Assembly: GCA_026401075.1 (NCBI GenBank)
Contig: JAPLNQ010000177.1
Span: 1-40,083, forward strand
DNA from: Planctomycetia bacterium
GTDB lineage: Bacteria > Planctomycetota > Planctomycetia > Pirellulales > UBA1268
DNA: 40,083 bases
Direction of reading: 5' to 3'
The translations under genes were made by a program, and so were the position numbers. Shown one piece after another: positions 1,208-3,167 of this stretch; position 1 is the first letter of the stretch; each line of letters starts with the position of its first letter. The notes below the pieces were generated by a model that saw only the letters and a list, made by a program, of their open reading frames with translations, ran no database searches and was not told where the DNA came from.

Positions 1208-2170
1208 ATGATCACGCCCACGCTGCCGGCAGGGATTCGCGACGACATCACGCAGTGCATTGGCAGAACGCCGCTCGTTCGGCTGCGTCGGGTCACCGAT
1301 GGTTGCGTGGCGACGGTCGTCGGCAAAATCGAGAACATGAATCCGCTCTGGAGCGTGAAGGACCGCATCGCGGTGGCCATGGTCGATGCCGCCGAACGGG
1401 ACGGGCTGATCGGCCCCGACACCATCATCATCGAGCCCACCAGCGGCAACACGGGGATCGGTCTGGCCTACGTCTGCGCCGCCCGCGGCTACCATTTGCG
1501 GGTCACCATGCCGGAGAGCATGAGCCTCGAACGCCGGCGGATGCTCAAGGCGCTTGGGGCCGAGCTTGTGCTGACGCCCGCCGCCGAAGGCATGCCCGGC
1601 GCAGTCCGCCACGCCGACGAGATCAGCCGCTCGAGCAGCCAGTTTTTCATGCCGCAGCAGTTCAAGAACCCCGCCAACCCAGACGTTCATCGCAGGACGA
1701 CGGCCGCGGAAATCTGGGAAGACACCGAGGGGCAGATCGACATTCTCGTCTGCGGCGTGGGCACTGGCGGCACGATCACCGGCTGTGGCGAGGCGCTGAA
1801 GGCGAAAAAGCCCGACCTCAAGGTCGTGGCTGTCGAGCCGGCCAACAGCCCGGTGATCTCGCAGAAACTCGCCGGCGAGCCGATCAAGCCGGGGCGGCAC
1901 ACGATCCAGGGCATCGGCGCGGGCTTCATTCCTGACATCCTCAACCTCAACATCATCGACGAGGTGGTCAAGGTCGACGACGAGGATGCGATGGAGACGA
2001 CGAGGCAGATGGCGAAGCGGGAGGGCTTGATGTGCGGCATCAGCTGCGGCGCGGCGGCATGGGGCGCCCTGCAGGTGGCGCGGCGGCCCGAGAACGCCGG
2101 CAAACTGATCGTCGTCGTCCTGCCCGATCTCGGCGAGCGATACCTCTCAACCCGGCTCTTTCCGGAGTGA
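1208..2170 (+). CDS. cysK: Cysteine synthase (O-acetylserine sulfhydrylase), PLP-dependent
   Basis: This 320-aa protein has the length and order of motifs of the CysK/CysM fold-type II PLP family. It makes L-cysteine from O-acetylserine and sulfide in the cytoplasm. Visible marks are IGRTPLVRL near residue 18, the PLP lysine K51 in the motif SVKDR, the substrate loop TSGNTG at 78-83, the phosphate-binding GTGGTITG at 185-192, and GISCGAA near the C-terminus. The usual NPAGSVKDR is NPLWSVKDR here, a small oddity next to the catalytic lysine. The start ATG is preceded by ATAGGTG at a suitable distance. There is no CBS domain or regulatory extension, which argues against cystathionine beta-synthase. 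CysK versus CysM cannot be fully separated by eye. A 25-bp inverted repeat starts three bases after the stop. Confidence 0.93.
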
Positions 2171-2172
2171 AA

Positions 2173-2275
2173 GAAAATAGGGACGGGAGCGATTTTTTTG
2201 AAGCAACCGCGCCCCTCCTCGGACCAGAGACGTATCACCTCGGCCGACCGAAAAATCGCTCCCGTCCCTATTTTC
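2173..2275. repeat. Inverted repeat with perfect 25-bp arms (REP/MITE-like) between convergent genes
   Basis: The arm at 2173-2197 is the exact reverse complement of 2251-2275, and 53 bases lie between. The core of the arm reads GGGACGGGAGCGATTTTT. The element starts 2 bases after the cysK stop, and its right arm contains the last codons and the TAG stop (2268-2270) of the esterase on the opposite strand. It could act as a bidirectional terminator because each strand has a T-rich end to its arm. The long perfect arms and defined edges also suit a small mobile or REP-type element. No transposase is nearby. Confidence 0.85.
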
Positions 2276-3167
2276 GCTGGCTGAAGAGCCAGTCGAGTAC
2301 GAAGCCATCGCGGTAGGCGGGCGTCCACGAATCGTGGCCCACGCCCGGTAGTTCCGAGTAGATGGGACGGCCGCCGGCAGCCTTCACCGCTGCGATCATG
2401 ATTCGCGACCGATCGACCGGCACGGCAGTATCGGCGTCGCCATGGAAACACCAGATCGGCAGGGCCGCGATGCGGGCGGCAACGCGATCATCGCCGCCGC
2501 CGCAGACCGGCAGGATGGCGGCGAAGCGGTCGGGCATCCGTGCCGCCAGATCCCAGGTGCCAAAGCCACCCATCGAGAGGCCCGTAAGGTAGATGCGGGC
2601 GGGATCGACAGCCTCTCGAACCAGAGTTTCCTCAAGCGCCTTCGTGGCTGCCGCCAGGTCGACGGTGGACATGGTGGGCTGTGGCGTGCTCTTCTCGTCA
2701 GCCCAGGATACATCCACCCAGCGTTCGTCCATCCGGCACTGCGGTGCGAGCACGAAGCATGGGTGGCGCTTTCGCAGGGCGGGATCGGCCAGCCACGTGG
2801 GCAGATACTTGAGTTGCTTGAGGTTGTCGTTGCCCCGTTCGCCGGCCCCATGCAGGAAGAGCACGAGCGGATACCGGTGGCCATCGCGTCCATCACCGAC
2901 GACAGACGCCGGCCGAAGCAGTCGATAGCGGAATTCAACCGTCTCGCTCCCCTCGGCGATGCTGACGGACCGTTCTTCGTAGAGCGTCGTCTGGTCGGCG
3001 TTGGTTGCGGCGGGGTTTTGGGGGATCGCTGGCACGGCTTGCACAGGTGCTTCCTCGGCGCGGGTGGGGATCGGCATACAGCAGGCAAGCCCTGTCAGGC
3101 AGGTGAAGAATTGGGTGCTGACAAGCGAAACCAGTGCACTGAGACGTGGCATGGGTGGGATGCTCAT
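2268..3167 (-). CDS. Secreted alpha/beta-hydrolase (esterase / phospholipase-carboxylesterase type)
   Basis: This 299-aa protein has an N-terminal export signal (hydrophobic residues 10-30; a Cys pair there leaves a lipoprotein possible) and an alpha/beta-hydrolase domain from about residue 65. It shows LVLFLHGAGERG (oxyanion-hole region, about 101-112), the nucleophile elbow GLSMGG with Ser198, the acid-loop motif HGDAD near 242-246, and GVGHDSW supplying His278, which together form a plausible Ser-Asp-His triad. This pattern is typical of the secreted prolyl-oligopeptidase/polyhydroxybutyrate-depolymerase-like esterases common in planctomycetes. The substrate is not evident. A second in-frame ATG at 3152 is a possible start. 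It begins 7 bases after the stop of the J-domain gene, so the two are probably one transcript. Its stop codon lies inside the inverted repeat. Confidence 0.85.
   Translation of the reverse strand: MSIPPMPRLSALVSLVSTQFFTCLTGLACCMPIPTRAEEAPVQAVPAIPQNPAATNADQTTLYEERSVSIAEGSETVEFRYRLLRPASVVGDGRDGHRYPLVLFLHGAGERGNDNLKQLKYLPTWLADPALRKRHPCFVLAPQCRMDERWVDVSWADEKSTPQPTMSTVDLAAATKALEETLVREAVDPARIYLTGLSMGGFGTWDLAARMPDRFAAILPVCGGGDDRVAARIAALPIWCFHGDADTAVPVDRSRIMIAAVKAAGGRPIYSELPGVGHDSWTPAYRDGFVLDWLFSQRK

Follow-up and report, generated by a model that had tools for sequence, protein, structure and literature searches.

A probably RAYT-mobilised inverted repeat at the convergent cysK–esterase junction of a Planctomycetia bacterium

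The window, that is, the whole stretch of 40,083 nucleotides analysed here, contains a cysK-like gene and an esterase-like gene that converge on an inverted repeat. In the following, G000 denotes the genome to which the window belongs, and G001 to G004 denote its congeners. The features of the junction are:

1208–2170, plus strand: cysK-like gene (PALP family), ending 2 bases 5′ of the left arm.
2173–2197, plus strand: left arm, the exact reverse complement of 2251–2275 and a member of the genomic family of 71 arm matches.
2198–2250, no strand: spacer; G002 has a homologous spacer at this site (42/52 aligned bases), and so probably does G003.
2251–2275, minus strand: right arm, containing the last Lys codon and the TAG stop of the esterase gene.
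2268–2270, minus strand: esterase TAG stop, supplied by the AAATAG of the arm.
2268–3167, minus strand: esterase-like alpha/beta hydrolase gene, convergent with cysK; the same gene pair forms this junction in relatives.

The first-pass annotation had described a perfect 25-base inverted repeat around a 53-base centre, and recomputation agrees on both points. Its placement of the genes also holds: cysK ends with TGA at 2168–2170, followed by AA and then the arm, and the esterase gene ends inside the right arm with its stop and its last Lys codon. A search with a 20-base arm core, allowing up to 3 mismatches, found two matches in the window, both corresponding to the arms, and none in 100 dinucleotide shuffles. 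The element strand was predicted to fold at −32.7 kcal/mol as DNA (z −6.3) and at −57.2 kcal/mol as RNA (z −7.7), in both cases beating 200 of 200 shuffles. These controls and z-scores, together with the genomic copy number, rule out a chance palindrome. The element thus has the layout of a REPIN, in that two inverted conserved repeats flank a spacer and can form a hairpin. A search for an Rfam identity returned only two microRNA matches far below the gathering scores, which we read as hairpin noise, and no intrinsic terminator was found by a scan whose 8-nt loop limit excludes the hairpin of the element.

G000 is a draft of 4.16 Mb in 301 contigs (92.8% complete). When it was searched for the arm, as the first-pass annotation had proposed, a 23-base query allowing up to 3 mismatches gave 71 matches, against none for the reversed control; the arm is therefore not unique and has the many copies typical of a REPIN family. 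Grouping gave 42 groups comprising 78 arms, of which 32 groups were inverted pairs (+−), six were single minus arms, two were −−, one was ++− and one was a single plus arm. Two contig-end duplicates (L094, a pair that exactly duplicates L074 in reverse, and L086, a single arm duplicating L080 with up to 6 differences allowed) were set aside, leaving 31 two-arm elements. The inner 23 bases were the same in both arms in 16 of these 31, compared to 4.5 expected by partner shuffling, and none of 5000 partner shuffles reached 16. The constant arm-to-arm size that had been anticipated for a mobile element was not observed: gaps between arm cores span 3–158 nt, with clusters at 35–42 and 51–57 nt, and this variable spacer length counts against a mobile element. 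Moreover, the spacers of G000 elements are mostly unrelated. Among the pairs listed, those scoring above the top shuffled score of 14 were C126/C251 (71), the two C169 elements (23), C276/C107 (19) and C6/C82 (16). Such related pairs suggest copying of whole elements, with later drift of the spacer while the arms would stay alike; since most spacers are unrelated, the evidence for unit-wise copying is confined to a few pairs.

The groups are concentrated at gene ends. Fourteen of the 42 lie between convergent genes, versus 8 of 65 gaps elsewhere (Fisher p 0.013), according to gene calls from a home-made caller, which did not detect the RAYT gene. For 23 of the 32 elements, a facing stop codon starts −10 to +12 from the outer edge of the arm. 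The share of random intergenic points that fall within 10 nt of a facing stop, which is not quite the same distance window, is 6% when points are drawn per base and 31% when they are drawn per gap; against the stricter 31% the binomial p is 2e-6. Seventeen stop codons overlap an arm, and in five of them, including that of the esterase, the stop is the TAG of AAATAG. One element (L070:1573-1655, contig C76 of G000) was found in frame inside a 794-codon open frame, in a gene that we take to be uvrA-like, where it would encode about 28 residues if translated. At the corresponding point in relatives (L204, L205, L206), G003 carries the same element and a like peptide, G002 shows another palindrome, as read by eye, and G001 has neither of these repeats.

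The contigs of G000 carry two Y1_Tnp matches. One of them, C255:1361-1702, bears out the proximity to a RAYT (REP-associated tyrosine transposase) gene that had been predicted, as it sits between arms at 1217-1279 and 2031-2053. Its protein matches PF01797 at 44.1 bits (cut-off 23), and an alignment of 14 sequences shows no variation at the HUH histidines H106 and H108 or at Y168, the tyrosine of YVERN, so that the Y1_Tnp domain, the HUH motif and the catalytic tyrosine of a RAYT are all present. The best and sole NCBIfam match listed was NF047646 (REP_Tyr_transpos), at 58.5 bits, below the curated cut-off of 80, and no solved structure was matched by sequence. The transposase is 89% identical to that of G009, where arms lie at both gene ends, and 84% identical to that of G003, where an arm of the G003 type lies at the 3′ end and the other end is a contig end. 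The gene is thus flanked by the same repeats on both sides in G000 and G009, and on one side in G003. In G001 the entire RAYT stretch is missing, and its place downstream of a tRNA-Pro is taken by 281 nt with another repeat family. Beside the RAYT gene, a nucleotidyltransferase gene (L060:2357-2917 on C255; AbiEii/DUF6036 matches) takes its TAG from an element arm; it is missing in G001 along with the RAYT gene. The second RAYT-like gene (L061:1466-2164, contig C222) is 49% identical to that of C255, and no arm copy was present within the 2.5 kb examined. Scanning of named genomes for the transposase gave 51 loci, the closest from Planctomycetota, and among the 22 examined an inverted GGGGAC-type repeat was seen on both sides of the gene in at least three (L251, L253 and L254). 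That is, RAYT-like genes occur here flanked by inverted repeats other than GTAG REPs, as in TIRYTs and TIRtrons.

Orthologous sites were sought in the congeners for 28 of the 42 groups, with the window site compared separately. Among the matches listed, 18 sites with placeable flanks were compared, all selected for element presence in G000; the genomes are drafts (G004 is 72% complete), and for C13 and C228 G003 offers only poor flanks. Element pairs were present in G003 at 11/14 sites, in G001 at 1/15, in G002 at 3/17 (plus one single arm) and in G004 at 0/9, and sites without any arm numbered 14/15, 13/17 and 9/9 in G001, G002 and G004, respectively. C6 and C82, having one flank only, were kept outside these counts, although arms adjoin that flank in G002/G003 and G001. 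The clearest empty sites were at C102, C13 and C107, where, at eight congener sites, the aligned flanks are only 3–12 bases apart and up to 17 more flank bases are left unaligned. An unrooted tree from six sites gave ((G001,G002),G000,(G003,G004)), both branches at 100. Sharing of elements therefore tracks RAYT presence and not kinship, as the distant, RAYT-bearing G003 shares most sites and closer relatives few. Some caution is due here, since all of these genomes are drafts, and G001 and G002, in which no close RAYT was found, do hold weak Y1_Tnp matches. Arm matches nevertheless occur in G001 (5) and G002 (18), which we counted against mobilisation by the RAYT.

Comparison of spacers between G000 and G003 (C89 and C251 left out) gave a mixed picture. 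Spacers were alike at C50, C76 and C228 (0 of 500 shuffles as good at each), borderline at C28 and C276 (14 and 27 of 500), weakly related at C107 (65/500), and unlike at C102 and C274a (234/500 and 296/500). The last two do not support strict vertical inheritance of every shared site, and some sites were therefore probably gained twice. At C107, G002 and G004 have empty sites that, read by eye, start with the same bases, suggesting that the ancestral site was empty and that the element was gained separately. At C50 and C76 flank identity is 0.905 and 0.903 to G003 and 0.896-0.922 to G001/G002, the six-site G000–G003 average being 0.864; recombination between lineages is a possible reading of these values.

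With respect to the esterase, the first-pass annotation had named two outcomes that would tell against a mobile origin, a unique arm and orthologues ending in the same peptide. The former does not apply, whereas all three congeners compared (the partial copy of G004 left out) do end at the same residue position as G000: before the stop, G001 ends in QRR, G002 in QRK and G003 in QRR. Consequently, the last codon and stop were replaced while protein was neither added nor removed, and lengthening or shortening of the esterase by the insertion is ruled out for these three. The insertion altered at most the last residue of the esterase and supplied its stop. Of 12 orthologues from outside the genus that share the cysK junction, 11 extend 2–14 residues further and one, L111, stops level; an additional orthologue, L123, is not convergent and falls outside the 12. 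G002 carries its element at this very site, matching that of G000 at 49/50 arm positions and 42/52 spacer positions (Fisher p 0.008). In G003 the same-site element has a TAA at the arm edge, and its spacer resembles that of G000, with 1 of 500 shuffles scoring as high. In G001 the site holds, in place of the element, a member of another repeat family, 2 mismatches away from the motif of that family. Because G002 carries the element there with a homologous spacer, the insertion is older than the G000–G002 split, and the element was probably present in the common ancestor with G003 too.

The arm type differs by species, GAGCGA in G000 and GACTGA in G003. The sequence GGGGACGGGACTGATTTTT, with at most 1 mismatch, has 24 matches in G003 and none in the five other genomes tested, including G000. 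At C76 the spacers are 79% identical between the two, yet both G003 arms show the G003 form at the same two positions. The switch is not uniform, as the two G003 arms at the window site differ from each other and one G003 arm at C50 retains the G000 form. The arm types could stem from compensatory drift, from conversion of arms or from separate re-insertion; the number of cases is small. A second repeat family, family B (CCAAGCCCGNAGCGC...GGGAATNCG, a consensus read by eye from site alignments), lies at the same gene-end sites in the sister species; copies in G001 or G002 were seen at orthologous positions to C50, C89, C274a, C10, C228 and C121. Its loci are:

L210, L214, L218-L221, L228 and L231 (G001, G002), L097:2467-2496 and L245: family B.

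Two copies lie near a weak Y1_Tnp match in G002 (L245). At C50 (L210-L213), G000 and G003 share the arm element, G001 has family B, and G002 and G004 seem by eye to share a different insert, a pattern that conflicts with the species tree. Our tentative suggestion, which we think more probably wrong than right, is that gene 3′ ends are shared docking sites with turnover of occupants, and that, within one family, both arms of an old orthologous element change jointly to the arm type that goes with the resident RAYT. If so, arms would evolve in concert with the transposase while element position and spacer are inherited, and different repeat families would occupy the same stop-codon sites in sister species.

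Taken together, we consider the window repeat to be a non-autonomous REPIN, or TIR doublet, mobilised in trans by a RAYT/TIRYT and settled at a gene end where it supplies the esterase stop, with a probability of about 0.86. Behind this reading stand the multi-copy arms, the matching of arms within elements, the transposase between arms, the empty congener sites and the placement at stop codons. The suggestion of the first-pass annotation, a small REP-like mobile element at a gene end, is supported likewise by the copies, by the 32 of 42 groups that are inverted pairs and by the RAYT-type gene between arms. The unit would be about 103 bp long, with inverted 25-bp arms around the spacer (a TIR dimer in Di Nocera's terms), and a tyrosine (HUH) transposase whose gene lies at another place in the genome would mobilise it. 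If this enzyme works like the RAYTs investigated in other systems, it may recognise arms or hairpin in single-stranded form and copy or insert the unit. At the window site the element fills the gap between the convergent genes, the outer AAATAG of its right arm serving as last Lys codon and stop of the esterase, and a secondary role as a 3′-end RNA hairpin is possible from the predicted fold.

It is conceivable, though we think it rather unlikely, that the repeat is kept mainly as a bidirectional 3′-end hairpin (a terminator, mRNA stabiliser or translation modulator) and that mobility accounts for its origin only. Its position at stop codons and in gaps where genes converge (14/42 groups vs 8/65 other gaps), maintained arm pairing, the stronger conservation of arms than spacer relative to G002 (49/50 vs 42/52, p 0.008) and the very stable RNA hairpin would all fit. 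However, most compared sites have no element in close relatives (14/15, 13/17 and 9/9, as above), and the element is therefore dispensable. Furthermore, the terminator scan detected nothing by its definition, one element lies in frame within a coding gene, and gene ends may simply tolerate insertion. With much lower probability, single arms insert alone after stops, and two of them at convergent genes make up an inverted repeat whose spacer is old intergenic DNA. This would account for the mostly unrelated spacers and for the single arms and odd groups (6 −, 1 +, 2 −− and 1 ++− among the 42), but not for the gap clusters at 35–42 and 51–57 nt, the pairs at tandem-gene sites, the spacers that are copies of one another or the matching of arms within elements; moreover, the 3–12 bases at the clearest empty junctions are too few for a spacer. 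Least probable of all, and very remote, is an ordinary intrinsic terminator that evolved locally with no tie to mobile DNA: the convergent location and the G+C-rich stem with A and T runs alongside recall one, but the transposase between arms and the empty congener sites speak against it, and the 71 genomic arm matches refute it.

A REPIN mobilised in trans thus remains the preferred reading. Orthologous empty sites in a little-studied phylum show transposase-linked repeats settling at stop codons, where they become gene parts while proteins keep their length. Within the genus, the dependence of a repeat population on its transposase can moreover be examined in a natural setting, since the distant RAYT-bearing G003 shares 11/14 sites, and G001 and G002, with no close RAYT, share 1/15 and 3/17 (G004 shares 0/9).

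Much of this has parallels in known systems. TIRYTs, TIR dimers and TIRtrons were described with their transposases by Di Nocera et al. 2013 (PMC3733652). The same authors also report that REPs lie within 20 bp of both 3′ ends of convergent genes, that ORFs take TAG stops from the ends of REPs, and that REPs are inserted in uvrA. As in TIR dimers and TIRtrons, the RAYT-like gene here lies between GGGG-type inverted repeats and the repeat is also a genomic dimer family. Unlike the consensus GGGGWSAS, which was reported for some TIRs but not all (PMC3733652), the arms here read GGGGACGG or AGGGACGG and lack its A. The two inverted conserved ends, pairing arms and less conserved spacer are those of REPINs (Bertels and Rainey 2011, PMC3116915), as are the non-autonomy and the link to a RAYT, although the copy number is below the 430 REP doublets of a Pseudomonas genome given there. 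In contrast to classical REPs, the arm has no GTAG-tagged stable palindrome, and alone it folds weakly (−1.3 kcal/mol; 15/200 shuffles as good). E. coli REP hairpins no more than about 15 nt away from a stop codon are reported to affect translation (PMC12306157); the repeat described here is similarly close to stop codons, but often overlaps the stop codon itself. Like Rickettsia palindromic elements (cited in PMC3733652), to which we liken it by description and not by sequence, it can lie in frame within a coding gene, here the one taken as uvrA-like, whereas the family is mainly found at gene ends. Further cited work includes PMC2817692, PMC8266576, PMC8049555 and PMC6006769. In the literature searched, the letters GGGACGGGAGCGA were matched only in work on sheep cells, and publications on RAYTs and Rhodopirellula, judged by title, gave none on the arm repeat found here. 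Stop-codon supply and gene-end placement are thus already in print for REPs, as are TIR dimers with transposases (PMC3733652). What is new here is the arm repeat family itself and the empty-site comparison. Less usual are the species-specific arm type, even over a conserved spacer, and the presence of the element, for which the transposase is a better guide than the species tree.
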